Origin: Pseudobacteriovorax sp.
GTDB taxonomy: Bacteria > Bdellovibrionota_B > Oligoflexia > Oligoflexales > Oligoflexaceae
Length of the DNA stretch: 64,000 nucleotides
Reading direction: 5' to 3'
Assembly: GCA_013215145.1 (NCBI GenBank)
Contig: JABSRP010000011.1
Span: 1-64,000, forward strand
Part shown: in pieces, positions 16,587-27,225 of the stretch
Position numbering within the stretch: position 1 is the first letter of the stretch
How the letters are laid out: each line of letters opens with the position of its first letter
Notes under the pieces: model-generated
Database searches by the model: none
What the model saw: only the letters and a program-made list of their open reading frames with translations
What the model was told of the DNA's origin: nothing
Made by a program: the position numbers and the translations under genes

Positions 16587-17450
16587 TTAAAGGTTAGAGA
16601 CGCGTTTGGTCTGTGTGGCGAGCTTGCGAAAGAAGCGAGCCTCCTCAAATTGTGTGGACTCGTAGCAATCGCTTAGATTTGAAATTGATTCGGCGCATCC
16701 AAGAACCAGATAGCTGTCGTCTTTCAAATAGCGATGCATATTTTTTAAGATCTCATACCGCTTCTCCAGACTTTGATAAATAAGTACATTGCGACAGAGA
16801 ATGATGTCAAAACTTCCTGTTATGCTCCAGGCCTCAAGAAGGTTGAAGTGTGAGAAAGATATATGCTTTTTCAGTTCGTCGTTGACCTCCCATAGAGTTC
16901 CTGGACGGTCGTCAACCTTGGGTTTTTGATTGAAGTATTTGACAAGATTTGCCGAGCCCAAACCTCGTTGGACTTCTAGCTGAGTATAGATGCCAGATTT
17001 TGCTTTATCGAGTGCTCTTTGGGAATAGTCTGTGGCAACAATGCTAAAGTCAAAGTCTTTTTGCTTTTTTTGTAGGGTTAGCAGCTCCATGGCTAGGCTG
17101 TATGGCTCCTGTCCAGTACTACAAGCGGCAGACCAAATGCGTACGCTCTTGCCTTCTGCGGCAAGGGGTTTGATTACCTCACGAATAAGGGTCTTAAAAA
17201 CTTTTGCATCTCTAAAGAATGAGGTTTCGTTGTTTGTTGCAACATCCAAAATATATTTTGTGATCTTTTGATCACGTAATTTTGCAACTTTATGATGTAG
17301 AGTTTCCATGGAATCTAGTTCGAAGTGAGCTACAACTGACTCAAGTCGGGACTCTAGTTGATAAAAAGTCATTTCATTGTAGACAATGCCGATCTCTTTA
17401 AAAATGAGGTCTGCAAAGAACTTTAAGATTGGACCATTTAGGTCTTCCAT
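16587..17450 (-). CDS. cheR: Chemotaxis protein methyltransferase CheR
   Basis: 287 aa. SAM-dependent enzyme that methylates glutamates of chemoreceptors. N-terminal helical CheR_N domain, then the SAM-binding motif ACSTGQEPYSLAM, the segment NETSFFRD that precedes it, and the catalytic-domain marker ILCRNVLIY. Length is normal for CheR. Last gene of the minus-strand operon that begins with cheA; its ATG overlaps the cheY stop by 1 nt (TAATG), so it is translationally coupled. No receptor (MCP) gene is in the window, so the methylation substrates lie elsewhere. Confidence 0.95.
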   Translation of the reverse strand: MEDLNGPILKFFADLIFKEIGIVYNEMTFYQLESRLESVVAHFELDSMETLHHKVAKLRDQKITKYILDVATNNETSFFRDAKVFKTLIREVIKPLAAEGKSVRIWSAACSTGQEPYSLAMELLTLQKKQKDFDFSIVATDYSQRALDKAKSGIYTQLEVQRGLGSANLVKYFNQKPKVDDRPGTLWEVNDELKKHISFSHFNLLEAWSITGSFDIILCRNVLIYQSLEKRYEILKNMHRYLKDDSYLVLGCAESISNLSDCYESTQFEEARFFRKLATQTKRVSNL

Positions 17451-17818
17451 TATGCGACCTTTCTTTCCAAAACCATTTCTAATTTTTCGAAAAGAATATC
17501 TTTGGTGAAAGGTTTCATAATATACTCATCGGCACCAAAGGTTAGGGCTTCGGATATATCTTTTACATTGTTTTTGGAAGTTACCATAACAATGGGGATT
17601 TCGCTGCCACCGTCTCGGAGTTTTTTAAGAGCTTCCACACCAGTGACGTTGGGCATCTCCCAGTCGAGGAGGATCACATCAATGTTTTGTTCACCGGCAA
17701 CGGTATCGATAGCTTGCTGGCCATCGTAGGCATGTAGGAGCGTATGTTCCGTTTCTGCAAACATAGCCTCGATAAAGCCATGGACCGATTTTGAATCGTC
17801 GGTAACTAAAATTTTCAT
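17450..17818 (-). CDS. cheY: CheY-type single-domain response regulator
   Basis: 122 aa consisting of one receiver domain: acidic pair VTDDSKS, phosphoacceptor Asp in VILLDWEMPN, switch Thr/Ser in IVMVTSKNN and conserved Lys in YIMKPFT. No output domain, so it should act as a diffusible phospho-protein under CheA control, binding either a flagellar switch or another target. It lies 34 nt after the 277-aa MshEN-like protein gene and is coupled to cheR. Because no flagellar gene is nearby the output (flagellar or other) cannot be decided. Confidence 0.94.
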   Translation of the reverse strand: MKILVTDDSKSVHGFIEAMFAETEHTLLHAYDGQQAIDTVAGEQNIDVILLDWEMPNVTGVEALKKLRDGGSEIPIVMVTSKNNVKDISEALTFGADEYIMKPFTKDILFEKLEMVLERKVA

Positions 17819-17852: not shown

Positions 17853-18686
17853 TTATAATAGCGCTTTAAGTTTTGTAATGGCTCCAACAAAATTTCCCTT
17901 GGATACATTATTTTCCCAGAACTCCCTTTCATCGCCACTCACTTCGATGAATCGGTGCAGCTCCCATAAAACGTCAAGAACCGTGAGTCGTGTCGGTAAA
18001 AAATCACCATTCTTAAGTAAGCTTCTTTCGGGGTCGTCTGAAAGAGCTTCAATCACTTGGGTCAGTACCTCTAGAAGTGTAAAAGAGATCTGCATTCTAG
18101 CAAAGTTAGCTGCAGCAGTTAATTGTTGGAGTGTTTCTTCAAGTTTCATCAGTAAGGTATCGTAGTCGGAATCCTGAGCGACGACTTTTTGTATGCTTGT
18201 TTCTAAAAACTGCTTAATCTCATTTGAGAAAAAATCAATATACTGGCGCTTTGTTTCGCCGCTAACTTTGGCGAATTCAAATGCGTACCCACCATCATCG
18301 ACGTTCTCCTCTGCTACATGATTTTGTACCTGTGCTGGACGATCATCTCTCTGTTGATCCAGCACCTCACTTAGGGAGGCAATATCGATATTGAATGTTT
18401 CGGCAATAATTTGACCAAGAGGTTGTCTCGAGGCTTTTTGATGTTCACTTACCTCGGAAATGACTTTTTGAGAAAGAAATCCAAGTTTGTTGCAAGTTGA
18501 GGTGAAGGTGTCTCCGCTCTCCCTGACCCCGATGGCCTTGACCAAGTCTTTGCATGATATTAGCTGCTTTTCATGGCAAATTTCAAATGTTGATACCAAT
18601 TGATCGCTTTGTAGCAGTAATGCTTCGGCGAGCTGCTCTCGGTTAATCACCCCCATTTCCACCAGTCTATTTCCAAAAAAACCCAT
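17853..18686 (-). CDS. Chemosensory-operon protein with MshEN-like repeats and Hpt-like C-terminus
   Basis: 277 aa, not a known che product. Residues 4-26 (FGNRLVEMGVINREQLAEAL) match the half-repeat of MshEN/GspE N-terminal domains; weaker copies occur at about 31-53, 60-83 (CNKLGFLSQKVISEVSEHQ) and 89-112 (PLGQIIAETFNIDIASLSEVL), i.e. two tandem MshEN-like units. MshEN is a c-di-GMP-binding domain in some secretion and pilus ATPases. The C-terminal part (145-250) is helical and laid out like a CheA P1/Hpt bundle, but LTAAANF stands where HTxKGS would be, so the phospho-His is missing. Encoded between the 131-aa paralogue and cheY. Inferred role: ligand-binding or scaffold component of this signalling operon. 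Confidence 0.7.
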   Translation of the reverse strand: MGFFGNRLVEMGVINREQLAEALLLQSDQLVSTFEICHEKQLISCKDLVKAIGVRESGDTFTSTCNKLGFLSQKVISEVSEHQKASRQPLGQIIAETFNIDIASLSEVLDQQRDDRPAQVQNHVAEENVDDGGYAFEFAKVSGETKRQYIDFFSNEIKQFLETSIQKVVAQDSDYDTLLMKLEETLQQLTAAANFARMQISFTLLEVLTQVIEALSDDPERSLLKNGDFLPTRLTVLDVLWELHRFIEVSGDEREFWENNVSKGNFVGAITKLKALL

Positions 18687-18698
18687 ATCAAATCTCTC

Positions 18699-19094
18699 CT
18701 ATGCGGCAATTTCAATTCCGAAGTCGCTAGGGCTTTCTATGACCATCGCAACGTATTCATCGAGTTTTACGGTTAAATCTGTAAAGGTTACGTGCTGATT
18801 TTTCAGTAGGTATAAGAATATAGATGGAACCTGATCCTTTATTATGCCGTCTAGCTGTAGTGAAAATTCTTCAGACCAATAACCCAAGACTTGGCAACTC
18901 TTTTCAAAACTACAATGCTCTGACGTCTGATGCTCATAAACAGCAAGTATTTGGTCAGTCGTCAGAAGGTTATTATCCTTAATCAGCCTCGGTAGAGACT
19001 TATTTCCCTTCGATTGTTGAATAAAGGCTTGCACCATGATCTCTGGGGTTACAATGCCGGATTCGACTAAAAACTCGCAAAAAGAAATTTTCAT
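18699..19094 (-). CDS. Small MshEN-like repeat protein in che operon
   Basis: 131 aa. Starts inside the last codons of cheB (4-nt ATGA overlap) and ends 12 nt before the 277-aa gene. It resembles the N-terminal half of that protein: repeats at 4-27 (FLVESGIVTPEIMVQAFIQQ), 34-56 (LPRLIKDNNLLTTDQILAVY), ~62-80 and ~92-113, the spacing of two MshEN-like units. The LG pair and Arg typical of good c-di-GMP binders are not well kept, so nucleotide binding is uncertain. No signal peptide or membrane segment. Likely a cytoplasmic partner of the chemosensory proteins; no named family recognised beyond the repeat. Confidence 0.7.
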   Translation of the reverse strand: MKISFCEFLVESGIVTPEIMVQAFIQQSKGNKSLPRLIKDNNLLTTDQILAVYEHQTSEHCSFEKSCQVLGYWSEEFSLQLDGIIKDQVPSIFLYLLKNQHVTFTDLTVKLDEYVAMVIESPSDFGIEIAA

Positions 19095-20182
19095 AAAATA
19101 CCCTTTACCATTTTTGAGATAATTTTTTCACAAGCATCAATACTTTTGATTTCGTCGAAAGCATCAACCTTAAATACGCTGCCTGGCATACCCCAAACGG
19201 TAGACGTTTCCTCATCTTGTATGACCACACAGCCTCCAGCATTTTTTATAGCTATAGAACCATCTTTACCGTCGCTTCCCATTCCGGTCAAAACCATTGC
19301 AAAGGCCTTTCTTTGAAAAATTTCAGCAGCAGATTCGAAAAGATAATCAACGGCAGGCCTGACGGAACATCTCTTTTGCCTTTGATCAAGCGATATACTA
19401 ATATCGTCTCCTTGCTTGACCAGAGTCATATGGTAATCTCCCGGAGCTATATAGATGCGATTTTGTAAGGTTTCCATGTGCTTTGCTTCAGCAGTCTCAA
19501 TTTGGGTTAATTCTTGAATCGATTTCGCCAACGAGCTTGTGAACGTCGGAGGCATATGCTGGGTGATGAGAATTGGAATCTTTAAAGGTGGACGCAACTG
19601 ACCTAAAAGTGTTTTTAATGCTACTGGCCCGCCGGTGGAAGAACCTACGACACATATCTTAGGTGAAAACATATTTACGTTGATTTTGTGCCAATTACTT
19701 TTGTTCGGAGTTTGACTTTGAGGAACTGGAGCGGCGGGAGCTGAAGTCGTTTGCCCAACAGCCACTTTTTCAGGTACTCTGTTATTGCTAATGAATTGAA
19801 GTGCTCTAGGAATGAGTTGCTCTTTTATATGTTCAAGGGCTTCTTCTAACGAATTAACATTAGCTGGTTTTGTTACAAAATCATTTGCACCAGCCTCCAG
19901 TGCTTTGATTGTTGTATCGGCACCACGAGCAGACTGACCAGAGAATACTATAGTATGTACCTTTATATTCTTCTGTCGAATCTGTTCAAGGGTTTCGATG
20001 CCTCCCATTTCAGGCATTTCCAAATCGAGTATGAGAAGATCAAAATCTCCGCGTTCGAGTTTGCCAAGGGCTAATACACCGTTAGGCGCAACTTCAATAT
20101 GATTGAACTCTGGACACGAACCAATAGCGGCTTTGATTTGGCTCCGAAACACAACCGAGTCATCAACAATCAGAACTTTCAT
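19091..20182 (-). CDS. cheB: Protein-glutamate methylesterase CheB
   Basis: 363 aa. Receiver domain first (VDDSVVFR, phosphoacceptor in LLILDLEMPEMGG, Lys in FVTKPAN), then a Pro/Ala-rich linker, then the methylesterase domain with the Ser-His-Asp triad in VVGSSTGGP, ITQHMPP and LTGMGSDG. It removes methyl groups (and deamidates) chemoreceptor glutamates opposite to CheR, activated by phosphorylation from CheA. Lies 13 nt after cheW and overlaps the following 131-aa gene by 4 nt. Confidence 0.96.
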   Translation of the reverse strand: MKVLIVDDSVVFRSQIKAAIGSCPEFNHIEVAPNGVLALGKLERGDFDLLILDLEMPEMGGIETLEQIRQKNIKVHTIVFSGQSARGADTTIKALEAGANDFVTKPANVNSLEEALEHIKEQLIPRALQFISNNRVPEKVAVGQTTSAPAAPVPQSQTPNKSNWHKINVNMFSPKICVVGSSTGGPVALKTLLGQLRPPLKIPILITQHMPPTFTSSLAKSIQELTQIETAEAKHMETLQNRIYIAPGDYHMTLVKQGDDISISLDQRQKRCSVRPAVDYLFESAAEIFQRKAFAMVLTGMGSDGKDGSIAIKNAGGCVVIQDEETSTVWGMPGSVFKVDAFDEIKSIDACEKIISKMVKGIL

Positions 20183-20195
20183 ATTTCAACAACCT

Positions 20196-20663
20196 TCATG
20201 CGGCTAGGTCTTCCGCTGTTTCGTTCAGAAAACCAATCACACGATCAATATCAATAACTGACAAAAGCTGTCCTGATACTTTATAGACGCCCCTTAGAAA
20301 TCGTCTTGTCCCTTCAGGAATGGTATTAGGTGTTGGTTCAAAGTCATTGGTATTGACCTCGAGTACATCTCCAATTTTGTCCACTTGAAAAGAGATCAAG
20401 AAACCATCGAGTTTACAAACGACATTGAGTGCCTCTGCTGGACGTTCGACGTGAATCTCGAATAATTCTCTTAGACCTATCGCTGTGGCAACCTGCCCAC
20501 GTAGGTTAATCAGCCCTCTTACAAAATCGGGAGCTAGCGGAATATCTGTCATACCCATGGGTCTCACGATTTCTTGAACTCGAGTGACATCGAGGCCAAA
20601 AAGCCTATTACCGATAATAAAAGTGGAAAACTGCTCTGTTGTTACTTTATTTGTCATAATCAT
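20196..20663 (-). CDS. cheW: Chemotaxis coupling protein CheW
   Basis: 155 aa, a single CheW SH3-like domain: FIIGNRLFGLDVTRVQEIV, the VRGLINLRGQVATAIGLREL core and a final SGQLLSVIDIDRVI strand. It couples receptors to CheA. The ATG overlaps the cheA stop (ATGA); a second ATG two codons later is equally possible. CheA itself has two more CheW-like domains, so this operon encodes three in all. Confidence 0.95.
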   Translation of the reverse strand: MIMTNKVTTEQFSTFIIGNRLFGLDVTRVQEIVRPMGMTDIPLAPDFVRGLINLRGQVATAIGLRELFEIHVERPAEALNVVCKLDGFLISFQVDKIGDVLEVNTNDFEPTPNTIPEGTRRFLRGVYKVSGQLLSVIDIDRVIGFLNETAEDLAA

Positions 20664-23584
20664 CCGCCATTAATGATTTCGTTGATTGTCTTTAGTAGAA
20701 TCTCTTCATTTAGTTTCTCAAGGTAATCGATGAAACCAACATCTTTGCCACGTTTTATGTCCGACTCTCGAAACCTTGTGGTGACGGCAACCATCGGAAT
20801 ATGCTTAGTACTCGTATCAGAGTTTACCTTTTCAGCAAAAGTATAGCCGTCCATTCTTGGCATTTCTATGTCCGATAGAATCATGGTTAATTCATCTTTA
20901 TTTGCCTCAACCATCTCTAGGCCTTGCACACCATCGTCAGCAGTGGTGACCTTATAGCCATTGGATTCAAGACAGTTTCGGATATGATTGCGGAAGAATT
21001 TACTATCTTCAACCACCAAGATATGTTCCGAGTTAGCGGCTTTCTTCGGAGGCTCGAGCTTTATTCCGTGACTATCAGCGTAGTCCTGAATGATTTTAAA
21101 GGCGTCAATCACGACAAAAACTTGATCCCGATCAATGAAGGAACCGAGAATTCCCTGGTGGGATTTAATCTGATCATCGATAGCGGCGGTAGAACCAATG
21201 ACATCCAGGATCTCGCCGACCTCGAGTCCAAATAATCGTTCTTGGTACATAACGACAACGATTGGATTTGGCTCTGAAGGATCGGCCTTCTCTTTTTTGG
21301 GAAAGCCATAATAGTCAAGGACAGAAATTATGGGAAGTAGTTTGCCTCTGTAACGCACCACTCTTTGGCCGCCCGAGTAGTCATACTCACTGTCTTTAAA
21401 CTCTTCCAGACGATTGACTAATGAGAGAGGAAAGGCATACTTGCTTTGATCGTGAACATCGACAATTAGGTAATCAGTGATTTCCTCAAGTTTACGGTTC
21501 TTGTCACGCGCGCCTGCTAAGAAGTCTGAGTCCTCGTCGTTATGACCAATAAGTGCTTTTTCTGCAATTCCCATAACATCCAGTGTCAGCGCTACGGTTC
21601 CGTCACCAAGGAGTGTAGCTCCAGCATATAAGCCGAGAGATTTCAAGAATTGAGTTAAAGGCTTAACGACGATATCAGCTGAGTCTTCGATGTCTTCCAC
21701 AATAAGGCCGAAGGCTGTAGTACCTGCCTTAAGGACTACGATATTGCAAGTGGGATCGTCTAAAAATGATGATCTTTCGAGGGAAGGATCAAGTAGCTGA
21801 TCGAGACAGACCAAGGGTAGCAGTTGACCTCTAAGTCGATAGACGGGCTTTCCTTGTAAGGTTTCAATTTTATTCTCGCTGTCTTCACTGAGGTCGATCC
21901 TAAGTAACTCGAGTAGTTTTACCTGAGGAATGGCAAAACGCTGATCTCCCGACCTAATAAGTAGTGCCGGTACGATGGCCAAAGTTAGTGGGATTTTTAA
22001 CAGAAGCGTCGTCCCCTTACCCAGAGTCGAGTTAAGGTCGATGACTCCTCCAATTCGTTCAATATTGGTCTTGACAACGTCCATGCCCACACCTCGACCT
22101 GATATATTAGATATCGATGCTGCGGTGGAGAATCCAGGTGCAAATATTAGCTGATGGACTTCCCGGTCGGACATGTTAGCCAGTTGGTCGTTGTTCACGA
22201 TACCTTTTTCAAGGGCCTTTTGTCCAATTTTATCACGATCCAATCCTCTCCCATTGTCGGCGATCTCTATCACGACTTGGCCGCCTTCGTGGTAGGAGTT
22301 GATCATGATCTGACCCACTTCACCTTTACCAGAGGCTAATCGTTCTTCGGGTGTTTCAAGTCCATGATCAGCTGAGTTCCGGACTATGTGGGTGAGTGGA
22401 TCCTTCACGGCCTCGATAAGAGTTTTGTCGAGCTCCGTCTCCGTTCCTTCTAATTTTAGTTCAATGCGTTTATTGAGTTCTTTTGCAAGATCTCTCACAA
22501 CGCGATGGAATTTACTTAGGATTGATCCCACAGGTTGCATCCGAGTCTTCATGACTTCGGCTTGAATTTCTGTGGTCACAAGGTTCACCTTTTGAGCGAG
22601 CTTGGCAAATTCTGGGTTTTTATCATCAGCTGCGAATCGAAGAACTTGGTTTCGTACCAGTACGAGTTCTCCAGCAAGATTCATCAATTTGTCCAAGAGA
22701 GTGACGTGAACTCGAATCGTTTCCTGAGAGTCCGCTTTTTTCTCTGTCATTGTATTAGCCTTCTTTTCAGGTTTGGTTGACTTTGGTTTCGGTGTTGATG
22801 GAGCAGGAGCCGGAGACGCCGCTTTAGGAGTAGTTGGACTCGCTTTTGGAGCCGGAACCTCCTTCTTTTCCACTTGTGCTACTGGAGTGGAAACAACTTT
22901 TTCTGGGGCAGCTTTCGCTGCAACAGGCTCTGATTTTTTTACGGCGCTGGCCTCTGGGCCGGCTGTCTTTTCTTCAGTAGGTGTTGAGGGTTTGGCAGCC
23001 ACAGGTTTGGGTTCCACCTTTTTTGGAGCCGCTTCCACTGAAGCTGGACTGGCTTCTACCTTAGTCTCGGAGCTCGTTGTTGCCGTTGCCGCGTGTTTGT
23101 GGGCCTGTGCATCAAATTTGGGTGTGTCTGCATTCGAAACCACATCGAAGCCGATGAAATCATCTCTCAAAAATCTTGTGGATCCGCCTATTGAACGTAT
23201 AGTCATGTCAATGAGTTTTGGAATACAGTCGAGCATTTCTGCTTCGGCATCATGCTCGACTTTGTTTTCTTTTATCGACTTGACGAGGTGAGAAACGATA
23301 TCGCAACCTTTGTAGATCACATCAATGAGATTACTATTTGGTTTGATCAGTCCCTGTCTGATCGGATCGAGACTAGATTCCATGGCGTGGGCAATGGAGC
23401 CAATCTGATGGAACCCAAACAACTGCGATGATCCTTTGATTGTGTGCATATCTCTATAGATGCTACTGATCGTCTCGTTGTCTATTTCGCCCTTCTCAAG
23501 GGAGGACAAAGACAGCGAAATGCGTTCGAGCATCTCCTCGCACTCACTGGTAAATTCACCAATGGCCTCTTCCATTGCGGACAT
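20660..23584 (-). CDS. cheA: Hybrid chemotaxis histidine kinase CheA with two CheW-like domains and a receiver
   Basis: Start chosen at ATG 23584 with AAAGGA 7 nt upstream; a longer frame could begin at TTG 23719 but adds 45 residues unlike CheA. The 974-aa product contains: Hpt/P1 with phospho-His at ~47 (MHTIKGSS); an Ala/Pro/Lys-rich linker (~160-290); dimerisation helices; a GHKL kinase (HIVRNSADHGLETPEER, IADNGRGLD, SGRGVGMDVVK); a first CheW-like domain; a second CheW-like domain (YLIVDVHDQSKYAFPLSLV... and FGLEVGEILDVI); and a C-terminal receiver (VVEDSKFF, Asp in MILSDIEMPRMDG, VTTRFRE). The receiver fusion recalls FrzE/hybrid CheA of deltaproteobacteria. First gene of the operon cheA-cheW-cheB-131aa-277aa-cheY-cheR. 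Confidence 0.93.
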   Translation of the reverse strand: MSAMEEAIGEFTSECEEMLERISLSLSSLEKGEIDNETISSIYRDMHTIKGSSQLFGFHQIGSIAHAMESSLDPIRQGLIKPNSNLIDVIYKGCDIVSHLVKSIKENKVEHDAEAEMLDCIPKLIDMTIRSIGGSTRFLRDDFIGFDVVSNADTPKFDAQAHKHAATATTSSETKVEASPASVEAAPKKVEPKPVAAKPSTPTEEKTAGPEASAVKKSEPVAAKAAPEKVVSTPVAQVEKKEVPAPKASPTTPKAASPAPAPSTPKPKSTKPEKKANTMTEKKADSQETIRVHVTLLDKLMNLAGELVLVRNQVLRFAADDKNPEFAKLAQKVNLVTTEIQAEVMKTRMQPVGSILSKFHRVVRDLAKELNKRIELKLEGTETELDKTLIEAVKDPLTHIVRNSADHGLETPEERLASGKGEVGQIMINSYHEGGQVVIEIADNGRGLDRDKIGQKALEKGIVNNDQLANMSDREVHQLIFAPGFSTAASISNISGRGVGMDVVKTNIERIGGVIDLNSTLGKGTTLLLKIPLTLAIVPALLIRSGDQRFAIPQVKLLELLRIDLSEDSENKIETLQGKPVYRLRGQLLPLVCLDQLLDPSLERSSFLDDPTCNIVVLKAGTTAFGLIVEDIEDSADIVVKPLTQFLKSLGLYAGATLLGDGTVALTLDVMGIAEKALIGHNDEDSDFLAGARDKNRKLEEITDYLIVDVHDQSKYAFPLSLVNRLEEFKDSEYDYSGGQRVVRYRGKLLPIISVLDYYGFPKKEKADPSEPNPIVVVMYQERLFGLEVGEILDVIGSTAAIDDQIKSHQGILGSFIDRDQVFVVIDAFKIIQDYADSHGIKLEPPKKAANSEHILVVEDSKFFRNHIRNCLESNGYKVTTADDGVQGLEMVEANKDELTMILSDIEMPRMDGYTFAEKVNSDTSTKHIPMVAVTTRFRESDIKRGKDVGFIDYLEKLNEEILLKTINEIINGG

Positions 23585-24095
23585 AGGTGGGTCCTTTCTC
23601 GATTGATTCCTATAAGACTCAAATTTGCCCTTGACCGTATAGATCAAAGGCTTACCTTGAGGGGATTCGGTTGCTATAGCGTCAATATTTAGTCCGGTAG
23701 ATGGCTCATGCTTTGGCAACCTGTTGATTTTTCCATACGCGCCTCAACAAAGAATCATATTCTTAGACTGTTACGAGACTTTAGGGTTGGCCAGAACAAT
23801 ATGAACCGGCGAGAATCTGCATGGAATTGCACCGATTTGTAAGCATCGCAGCATAGGGTTGAGGTGTGATTAGCTTGCCGGCCAAAATTTGACCTTTGTC
23901 GTTCTTTTTTATCCAGGCTCTAACCCGTTATATCTGTCAAATATTGATTCTATTTAACTTTCCTTTGTAAAAATATAATTTTGTCCTGGCGCGCTTGTTT
24001 CCTCTTATCAGGCAGAATTTGTTAAGATATTAGGTAGATGTCTTCGTCGTAATGCGATCCTGTGTTTCGCGGTTCATAGTAAGAGGGAGGAAGTC
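23585..24095. other. Intergenic region between divergent cheA and top6B
   Basis: 511 bp that should carry promoters for the che operon (minus) and topoisomerase VI subunit B (plus). The first 135 bp can be read as an N-terminal extension of CheA from a TTG codon, but with no ribosome site. The rest is A/T-rich towards 23940-24030. I see no other coding frame or strong repeat. Confidence 0.5.
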
Positions 24096-25967
24096 TTGCA
24101 AAAGGGAAAAATACGAGCGAGTAGTACTGCCGAGTATTTTGCGAAAAATTTGCAACAAGTTGGATTTTCCTCTCCGACGAAAGCCGTGTTAACCACATTG
24201 AAAGAGGCAGTCGATAATTCCCTTGACGCCTGTGAAGAGGCCGGGATTTTACCTGATATTTCCATCACTATCGAAAAAAAAGGAAAAGGTTCGCTAAAAA
24301 ATACGGATCAAATCCTAGTTAAGGTTGAAGATAACGGACCGGGGATTCACTCAAAGGATATTGCTAAGGTTTTCGGGGAATATCTTGCATCTTCAAAATT
24401 TGGTAAGGGTAGGTGTTCTCGCGGGCAACAAGGTATCGGTATCTCTGCTGCCACCACCTGGGCTATGCAAACGACGGCAAAGGGAGTTCGCGTCACCACC
24501 AAGACAGCAAAGCAAAAAATGGCAACCACTTGCTTAGTGCAGGTGGACTTGAAGCTCAATAAAGGGCACGTGAAAGATAAAAAAGAAATCAAATGGAAGC
24601 GTGAGCGTGGCACTGTCGTTGAGTTCTGGATCGATGGGCGCGTTCAATTGAACGGTGAGGCTGGTGTCATCGCTTTTCTTCGTAGCAATGTGCTGGTTAA
24701 CCCGCACTTAACTCTGCGTTATAAACTTATGGATCAAAAGCCGGTGACTGTAGAACGAGTCAGCGAGCTAGTACCGAAAATTCCTGAAGCCATGGCTCCT
24801 CATCCTCATACGATGAAGCTAGGGGAGTTTCTCGCTCATGCTCGCTTATTCGGAAGTACTGATATCAAAACTTGGCTGTCCGAATCCTTCTCTCGTATGG
24901 ATGATTCTGTTATCAAGGAATTGACTAGCTTAGGCGTAAAAAAATCTCTTTTGCTGAAGAAAATCGATCAGTTAAAAGATGATGATTTTAAATCGCTGTT
25001 TGTTGCCATACAAAATTGTGAGCTTAAACCACCTTCTACGAAAACGGTTTTATCCATCGGAGAGGAAGGTTTGGCAAAAAGTATTTTACGTTTGGGAGAT
25101 GTGGATTACTTTTCTGTGGTGACGCGAAAACCCACCATATGTGATTTCAAACCAGTCCAAGTCGAAATTGCCTTAGCAAGGATGTTAGGTAAAAACTCAG
25201 CAGAAGAAGACGTCGTCCAAGTCCTACGTTTTGCTAATCGTGTTCCGCTGCAATTTGATAAAGCTGGTTGTGCCATCGTCAAGGGAATCAGCACGGTTAA
25301 TTGGAAGTCTTACGGACTGCGCCAGTCGAGATCCTCTTTGCCTTTGGGGCCTTATATCATCGCCGTCAGCTTAGTCTCGCCCTTCATCAAATTTAAAAAT
25401 GCCTCAAAAGAGACCATCGATGCTTCCGAAGAGTTGGTAGAAGAAATCCGTAAGGCTCTCATGCAGGCGGGACAGCGCCTATCCAGGCATCTTCGACGAG
25501 AACACAAAGAAAGTGTTTTGGAAAGTAAAATCCAGCATATTGAAAGTTTTGCTCCCATATTGGTGGAAGGTCTAGTCAGAATCACTGAGTCTGATGAGGA
25601 AAGGAGAGATCGAGCTCATCAGGGATTGCTCAAGCTACTTGGGAGGGAAACAAAGGAAGCGGAAAAGGATTTGGAAGCTGCCGAAACTAAGCTCAAAAAA
25701 CATCTTCAAAGCCGACGGAAGAGGCTTGGTCACGTGGCTACAATCCTAGATCAAGAAAACGAAAAAAATGATGAGTCAGAAAAAAAGTTGGATGAAAACT
25801 CCGAATCTGATAGTACGAACTCTTCCAAGTCTAGGAAGACGAAAAAGGCTTCAGAGAAAACATCAAAAGACGGCAAAAAGGTAGCGAAGAAGAAAGTCGC
25901 GAAGAAGAAAGTCGCGAAGAAGAAAGTCGCGAAGAAAAAAGTCGCAAAGAAAAAAACTAAAAAATGA
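24096..25967 (+). CDS. top6B: DNA topoisomerase VI subunit B
   Basis: 623 aa; TTG start 24096 supported by AGAGGGAGG just upstream. ATPase subunit of the type IIB topoisomerase VI, an A2B2 enzyme that relaxes and decatenates DNA. GHKL motifs: EAVDNSLDACEEAG (Asn ~41), VEDNGPGI (~78-84), and RGQQGIGISAA (~109-119). An H2TH-like segment lies near residues 270-300, then the transducer domain with the switch Lys in the WKxY motif (VNWKSYGL). The C-terminal ~110 residues are charged and end in five Lys/Ala/Val-rich repeats, an extension not needed by archaeal enzymes. The family is archaeal/plant; bacterial copies are rare. The A subunit follows 97 nt downstream. Confidence 0.95.
   Translation: MQKGKIRASSTAEYFAKNLQQVGFSSPTKAVLTTLKEAVDNSLDACEEAGILPDISITIEKKGKGSLKNTDQILVKVEDNGPGIHSKDIAKVFGEYLASSKFGKGRCSRGQQGIGISAATTWAMQTTAKGVRVTTKTAKQKMATTCLVQVDLKLNKGHVKDKKEIKWKRERGTVVEFWIDGRVQLNGEAGVIAFLRSNVLVNPHLTLRYKLMDQKPVTVERVSELVPKIPEAMAPHPHTMKLGEFLAHARLFGSTDIKTWLSESFSRMDDSVIKELTSLGVKKSLLLKKIDQLKDDDFKSLFVAIQNCELKPPSTKTVLSIGEEGLAKSILRLGDVDYFSVVTRKPTICDFKPVQVEIALARMLGKNSAEEDVVQVLRFANRVPLQFDKAGCAIVKGISTVNWKSYGLRQSRSSLPLGPYIIAVSLVSPFIKFKNASKETIDASEELVEEIRKALMQAGQRLSRHLRREHKESVLESKIQHIESFAPILVEGLVRITESDEERRDRAHQGLLKLLGRETKEAEKDLEAAETKLKKHLQSRRKRLGHVATILDQENEKNDESEKKLDENSESDSTNSSKSRKTKKASEKTSKDGKKVAKKKVAKKKVAKKKVAKKKVAKKKTKK
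25881..25955 (+). repeat. Five tandem 15-bp repeats encoding the basic tail of Top6B
   Basis: Unit GTCGCGAAGAAGAAA, five copies with minor changes (first starts GTAGCG; last GTCGCAAAGAAAAAA), each encoding VAKKK. Gives a histone H1-like Lys-rich tail just before the stop. Confidence 0.95.
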
Positions 25968-26064
25968 TTGGCCGTGAGAGACGACTTGAAGCGTCGTTCA
26001 AGATAGACTGTTACTGAGGTATTTCGGCAAAGAGATACAAATCTTATTAATAGGAGCAAGATTC

Positions 26065-27225
26065 ATGTCGAAAAAGCCAAAACGAGTCCTCCAGGAGGAT
26101 ATTCCCGAGATAGCTCTGAGTCTATGCGAGGGGTTGCTCAAAGACTTGGAGCGAGCGAAAAGACCCTTAATTCAGGCAACAAAGTGTAGTTTGGATAACT
26201 CAAATTACGATCCTCGATTAGGTTACCTAACTCCTGGTAACAAAAAAGTCAAAACAGAACTCAACGTGGCGTCCGTGAAAAAAATGTCGCGAACCATTTT
26301 TATGTTAGAAATTCTCTTGCGAAATATTCAGGCCGGTAATGTGAATACCAAGCGCGAGCTCTACTATATGAGTAAGGGGGAGGTTAAGCATAATAGTCTA
26401 TTGAAGCCATTAGATTTTGCTGAGCAGCAAGAATCAGATTCCATAGTTGATTTTATTTGTGAAATCATCGAATGCTACCGTGAAGAGCTAAACTGCTATG
26501 CGAATGATAGGGGAGGGCAAACCTATTCAAAGCAGCTCGTTGTGGAAGAGCAGCTTCCAGACGGAACTACCGCTACCATTGATTTGTCGACACTTGGTAC
26601 GTCGCCCTTCCAACCAAAGAATCGGCCTCAAAATCTAAAGTTATCGTCTCGAAAAAAAATAGACTTTTGCCTCATCGTGGAATCAGAGGGTACCGCCAAC
26701 ACTCTCGTGGCTAATGGTTTTACTAAAAGGCATAATTCCATCGTTGTGGGGGCTCAGGGAGTTCCGTCGAATGCTGTCCGAGGTTGGCTCAAGCGTATTC
26801 AAGATCAGCTTAAAATTCCCTTGTTCTTTTTTGGCGATCTCGACGCCTACACCATGCAGAATATCTATCGTACCCTAAAAGCAGGTTCAGCCGCCTCACT
26901 CATCAGGAACTCTGACTTTTCTGCTCCAGAGGTGAAGTTTCTGGGCGTTTTGCCGGAGGATATCAAAAAATATGATCTTCATGATTATCCTGTGAAAGAA
27001 AATGATGCCGGAGAGTTCCGTTCCCTTAAAAAAGCCAAAGATGCCCTAGAAAATGATCCATTTTTTCAAAGTAGGAAAAACAAGGGATTGGCTGACATTT
27101 TGAGGTGGTTACTGGAAAATAAGCGAAGGTGTGAGCAGCAGGCTTACTTCACGGTTGATCCCCGGGATCCAACCATGCCTGAAAAAATTATTGTTGAAAA
27201 AATTGAGCGCGGAGATTTCATTTGA
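26065..27225 (+). CDS. top6A: DNA topoisomerase VI subunit A (Spo11-like)
   Basis: 386 aa; ATG 26065 with AGGAG upstream. DNA-cleaving subunit of topoisomerase VI. The 5Y-CAP (winged-helix) domain has a Tyr pair at residues 100-101 in TKRELYYMSKGEV, the place of the catalytic tyrosine of Spo11/Top6A. The TOPRIM domain has the metal-binding Glu at 206 (LIVESEGTANTL) and the DxD at 258-260 (FFGDLDAYTM). The C-terminal region (LPEDIKKYDL ... RWLLENKRRCEQQAYF) matches the Top6A dimer region. All residues needed for activity appear present. Together with top6B this makes a complete enzyme; the 97-nt gap with a good ribosome site suggests one transcript. Confidence 0.94.
   Translation: MSKKPKRVLQEDIPEIALSLCEGLLKDLERAKRPLIQATKCSLDNSNYDPRLGYLTPGNKKVKTELNVASVKKMSRTIFMLEILLRNIQAGNVNTKRELYYMSKGEVKHNSLLKPLDFAEQQESDSIVDFICEIIECYREELNCYANDRGGQTYSKQLVVEEQLPDGTTATIDLSTLGTSPFQPKNRPQNLKLSSRKKIDFCLIVESEGTANTLVANGFTKRHNSIVVGAQGVPSNAVRGWLKRIQDQLKIPLFFFGDLDAYTMQNIYRTLKAGSAASLIRNSDFSAPEVKFLGVLPEDIKKYDLHDYPVKENDAGEFRSLKKAKDALENDPFFQSRKNKGLADILRWLLENKRRCEQQAYFTVDPRDPTMPEKIIVEKIERGDFI

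Follow-up and report, generated by a model that had tools for sequence, protein, structure and literature searches.

MshEN-like proteins in che operons of the class Oligoflexia, a possible decoy of the chemotaxis phosphotransfer core

A chemotaxis operon of Pseudobacteriovorax sp. carries two genes, X1 and X2, for which Pfam scans give no family, and this raises the question of what part the two proteins have in a chemosensory pathway. The source genome is a 7.4 Mb draft; the window is the whole 64,000 nt stretch of contig JABSRP010000011.1 that was analyzed. Comparison with homologous proteins indicates that X1 and X2 together correspond to one protein, termed M, which is usually undivided and is here split or duplicated, a relationship that an earlier sequence-only reading of the locus overlooked.

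Operon layout

The operon is on the minus strand with the gene order cheA, cheW, cheB, X1, X2, cheY and cheR, as determined from open reading frames and Pfam matches (Table 1). The coordinates of the two genes, which the sequence-only reading had placed between cheB and cheY, are confirmed by the open reading frames and by the Pfam assignments of the flanking genes. The X1 start overlaps the cheB stop, and X2 begins 12 nt downstream of X1. The ribosome-binding site of X2 overlaps the X1 stop codon, and from this overlap the two genes are predicted to be translationally coupled. The cheA open reading frame opens at a TTG at position 23719; the ATG at 23584 agrees with the start of an orthologue.

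Table 1. Features of the che operon (positions in the window)
Feature	Position	Strand	Description	Evidence
cheA	20660–23584	−	P1-P3-P4-CheW-CheW-REC	
cheW	20196–20663	−		Pfam
cheB	19091–20182	−	REC + methylesterase	Pfam
X1	18699–19094	−	131 aa; only four MshEN-like half-repeats, 29-residue period	ORF
X2 ribosome-binding site	18694–18699	−	GGAGAG; overlaps X1 stop codon	sequence
X2	17853–18686	−	277 aa; MshEN-like head and His-less CheA-P1-like tail	ORF, AF2 (pLDDT 84)
X2 residues 1–114	18345–18686	−	MshEN-like half-repeats	NCBIfam, AF2 model, motif comparison
X2 residues ~137–277	17856–18278	−	five-helix CheA-P1-like domain without phosphoacceptor His	Foldseek, hhalign
Gln187 codon	18126–18128	−	aligned with CheA P1 phosphoacceptor His	P1/M alignment
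Glu253 codon	17928–17930	−	acid common to CheA P1s and all family members having the region	
cheY	17450–17818	−		Pfam
cheR	16587–17450	−		Pfam

Pfam scans find no T2SSE ATPase domain in X1 or X2, the lengths of which are only 131 and 277 aa. Single-sequence phmmer searches of PDB sequences with X1 or X2 gave nothing useful, and a plasmid search gave no match. Adjacent genes for topoisomerase VI subunits B and A (window positions 24096–27225) adjoin the che operon. Subunit B has a Lys/Ala/Val repeat tail and also adjoins the che operon in a second genome, G006.

The MshEN-like head and its nucleotide site

X1 and residues 1–114 of X2 are MshEN-like by both profile and fold. The NCBIfam model NF053729 ("c-di-GMP motif, MshE-related") matches X2 at 1.6e-8 and X1 at 2.7e-5, each under the curated cut-off, and matches 16 of 20 family members. 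Alignment of the family head by hhalign with GspE N-termini (GspE-N) from the same taxonomic order gives a score of 57.4 and a probability of 97, where 100 block shuffles give no more than 32.4 and the reversed control 14.9; the pair of X1 sequences and the pair of X2 sequences, each used by itself, still score 40.6 and 44.8. When PDB sequences are searched with the family profile, Thermus thermophilus PilF is matched in four stretches (E 1e-5). AF2 models display four helix-turn-helix half-repeats in each protein. The X1 model (pLDDT 90) has eight helices, and its best PDB fold match in Foldseek is 5htl, MshE with c-di-GMP (probability 0.85, with a weak E of 3.5). PilF-GSPIIB is also among the top matches, with weak E-values. 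The half-repeats of X1 start near residues 4, 33, 62 and 91, in agreement with a 119-aa homologue from Silvanigrellaceae that has four half-repeats of perfect 29-residue spacing; its alignment with X1 spans 111 residues (E 3e-8). The hydrophobic residues F4 and L8 are invariant. The sequence-only assignment of both proteins to MshEN/GspE-N half-repeats thus stands for X1 as a whole and for residues 1–114 of X2, but not for residues ~137–277, a CheA-P1-like half that was overlooked there.

The 119-aa homologue is a stand-alone MshEN protein (L048:1555-1914, minus strand; L049:1501-1860, plus strand; also L037 and L038). The c-di-GMP motif scores 105–112 bits in the two that were scored, far over the cut-off, and genes reading as rimM and trmD follow immediately downstream. 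This arrangement suggests that genes of ribosome/tRNA maturation are associated with a nucleotide receptor.

MshEN is a c-di-GMP receptor domain with the motif RLGxx(LVI)2xxG(LVI)2xxxxLxxxLxxQ, present twice with a 5-residue linker between the copies (Wang et al., PMC5013675). M resembles the MshEN/GspE-N domains of Vibrio cholerae MshE and T. thermophilus PilF in tandem half-repeats, fold and profile, and the motif length and 5-residue linker are retained. It differs in that the ATPase domain is absent, the scores of X1 and X2 are sub-threshold, and RLG is missing from both motifs in 20/20 members. The Gly of motif II is also missing in all 20, with A, P, F or I in its place. The two Gln positions that contact the ligand (ribose/phosphate) are each retained in 18 of the 20. 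X1 has both, while in the X2 head motif I is intact except for RLG to FFG and the second Gln is Arg55.

With RLG lost from every member and another residue in place of the motif II Gly throughout, canonical binding of c-di-GMP by the head is doubtful, i.e., the c-di-GMP sensing considered in the sequence-only reading is not borne out in its canonical form, and M is not filed as a demonstrated c-di-GMP receptor on this motif comparison. A changed, non-canonical nucleotide pocket may be present. M as a true receptor of c-di-GMP or another cyclic dinucleotide, feeding the level of the second messenger into chemotaxis, is consistent with the retained Gln residues, with the established role of MshEN, with the 12 GGDEF domains in the source genome, and with another CheA of that genome, which has a P1-MshEN-P3 architecture. 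It is nevertheless unlikely in view of the motif losses, the sub-threshold scores and the second Gln missing from X2; moreover, XpsE, a known non-binder, shows comparable changes (PMC5013675).

The P1-like tail of X2

Past the head, the AF2 model of X2 has a disordered linker followed by five helices. A motif in the tail, LxAAAxFxxA, had led to the suspicion of an Hpt-like bundle ahead of the fold search. The top six PDB matches of X2 in Foldseek are all CheA P1 domains, including P1 bound to CheY6. These matches include 1i5n (TM 0.73 by target) and 1tqg (TM 0.81), and 3kyi (P1:CheY6), 3kyj and 8c5v are also matched. The probabilities reach 1.00 and the E-values are weak (0.25 to 5), which reflects a query model that spans two domains and has a pTM of 0.52. 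Profile comparison by hhalign of the tail with P1 of the same-operon CheA gives a score of 32.1. The controls are lower: 150 block shuffles give no more than 20.8, reversed P1 15.9, and other helical domains 9.5–12.3. The hhalign probability is only 61 although the score is far above the shuffles. The match is specific in that P1 of CheA1 scores 30.4 and P1 of the REC-headed CheA2 10.7, and CheA2 P1 is ruled out as the origin of the tail by this low score. The Pfam Hpt family does not match the tail.

A REC-headed second cheA precedes cheA or is near it in many relatives (L083, L085, L087-L092 and L096), with the domain order REC-Hpt-kinase-CheW-CheW in the one scanned; it is absent beside the window operon.

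The column of the phosphoacceptor His holds H in 15/15 CheA P1 domains and in 0/17 M proteins, where the residue is Q, I, A, K, D, V, E, L or R. The family alignment shows no conserved His elsewhere in the tail, and an active Hpt is ruled out on these two grounds. The acid after helix D is common to CheA P1 domains and M, with E or D in all 14 M members that have the position. The tail thus resembles CheA P1 in its five-helix fold, in the profile of the same-operon P1 and in this acid, but it lacks the phosphoacceptor His, the HxxKG motif and a Pfam Hpt match, and it is on a separate polypeptide, fused to the MshEN-like head. Residues ~137–277 of X2 are accordingly read as a P1-like domain that, with the His gone, is predicted to be unable to carry phosphate at this site; for the same reason M is not classed as an Hpt member. 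Where P1 has its His and Lys, the tail has variable residues, so that the docking surface is not visibly conserved.

A different role for the tail would be that of a CheY-P phosphatase or phosphate-sink element rather than a decoy. In 56 genomes of the class no CheZ match exceeds the curated cut-off, and the P1 fold docks CheY (3kyj/3kyi). However, no acid/amide pair is invariant in the tail, CheX homologues are present elsewhere in many genomes of the class, including the source genome, and M persists in operons that have no local cheY. This role is very unlikely. A CheZ/CheX-type phosphatase by motif is ruled out, as the tail has no conserved amide column and no Pfam match.

Distribution of M and a possible decoy mechanism

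M is linked to che genes in 17 of the 58 genomes searched in the class Oligoflexia (Bdellovibrionota). A survey of che operons, suggested in the sequence-only reading, thus finds the linkage to be recurrent. It is conserved across genera, and M is a genuine component of che operons. The profile search names three carriers: two MAGs of the window's order, one of Pseudobacteriovorax antillogorgiicola and one of Oligoflexales, and, sharing only the class, Fluviispira multicolorata. M is usually encoded by one gene of 250–330 aa directly between cheB and cheY or cheR. Among the family members the X1–X2 pair is present only in the window genome and G006, where the X2 orthologue is 41% identical. 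X1 and X2 may or may not descend from one gene duplicated within this family (AU p 0.37). The P1-like tail is present in complete che-linked copies of M and absent from an orphan copy (G010) and from the rimM-linked 119-aa homologues.

M is facultative. Close relatives carry the same operon without it, with cheB directly followed by cheY or cheR. On the CheB tree the presence of M is clustered and corresponds to about five gains or losses, at least two of them forced. A minimal operon in G022 and G025 (L093:4413-8828 and L094) encodes an MCP, a P1-less CheA, CheW, M and an Hpt-REC protein and lacks both cheB and cheR; its split kinase recalls CheA3/CheA4 of Rhodobacter sphaeroides. In two related genomes (L099 and L100) the che operon is decayed: cheB, M and cheY survive as short fragments that are decaying together, and fliM is still present.

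A role of M in controlling the motor of a secretion system or of a pilus, the latter also considered in the sequence-only reading, would fit the GspE-N-like sequence. ATPase and pilus genes are, however, absent from all M operons examined; there is no PilB-type gene in the window operon, and the search of the source genome yielded a single canonical MshEN ATPase, the T2SS gspE, located on another contig. FliM is present in 16/16 M-carrying genomes tested, which is weak evidence, as most genomes of the class have it. Control of such a motor is extremely unlikely.

The position of M after cheB, and its persistence in operons that have a P1-less CheA and no cheB or cheR, argue for the kinase/phosphotransfer step rather than methylation. 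A MapZ-like link to methylation is unlikely, since M survives where cheB and cheR are gone. The retention of M in some operons without a local cheY argues against CheY as its sole partner, and gene order for this reason points to no one partner. The proposal made here, which has somewhat less than an even chance of being right, is that M regulates the chemotaxis phosphotransfer core as a decoy, switched by its MshEN-like head. In M, four half-repeats form the head, and a flexible linker joins it to a CheA-P1-like bundle that is predicted to be non-phosphorylatable. This pseudo-P1 would dock at the sites of the real P1, i.e., the P4 kinase domain of CheA and/or receiver domains, and would damp or redirect the flow of phosphate; the sign is presumed to be inhibitory. 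Docking would be gated by the head, in response to a ligand or to another protein. In the window pair, X1, with both Gln residues and no tail, may be the sensor, and X2, with the tail and a degenerate head, the effector.

The nature of the gate can be read in other ways. The head could be a ligand-free protein-docking or localisation module that brings the pseudo-P1 to the array, the motor or the pole. The eroded nucleotide-site signature is consistent with this, and short-helix repeats with invariant F4 and L8 suit protein binding; it leaves the selective retention of the two ligand-contact Gln residues unexplained, and the module is on balance fairly unlikely. A head of altered specificity (e.g., for 3',3'-cGAMP or another dinucleotide), with Arg lost, Phe gained and both Gln kept, could instead switch the pseudo-P1 on and off the CheA core, the two functions having been split onto two polypeptides by gene duplication in the family of the window. 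Such a specific combination is distinctly unlikely.

A small protein that regulates the kinase has a precedent in CsoR of Pseudomonas putida, which binds P1/P3/P4 of CheA and inhibits autophosphorylation (PMC11978298). MapZ and CsoR are, as proposed for M, small ligand-responsive accessory proteins that modulate a chemotaxis enzyme. Their folds are unrelated to that of M; the target of MapZ is CheR, whereas M is retained in operons that lack cheR, and CsoR, unlike M, is a copper repressor. The plant pseudo-HPt AHP6, which acts in the cytokinin relay, has an Hpt fold without a phosphorylatable His. It is a proposed analogue for the decoy mechanism only, being eukaryotic and without a sensor head, and no common origin is claimed. 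M is filed among the accessory che regulators. The open-access literature searched yielded no account of a stand-alone protein that combines MshEN with a His-less P1 and is encoded in che operons; subscription journals may hold one.

Known couplings between second messengers and chemotaxis involve a few adaptors (MapZ, PilZ receptors). A pseudo-P1 decoy would represent a different coupling principle, in which an MshEN-type head is joined to a dead copy of the phosphotransfer domain of the kinase. The assignment also gives an identity to genes that have no Pfam name and are labelled in NCBIfam only by a weak c-di-GMP motif.

An association of MshEN with CheA and CheX has been reported as domain architecture (PMC5013675). 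The second CheA of the source genome (G000:C87, L104:1039-2847) has an MshEN-like motif between an Hpt-matching P1 and P3. MshEN-bearing CheA proteins of this kind combine P1 and MshEN in a kinase context, as M does, but their P1 is functional by family match (Hpt over the cut-off) and is on the kinase chain in the order P1-MshEN-P3, whereas M has the order MshEN-pseudoP1 and no kinase.
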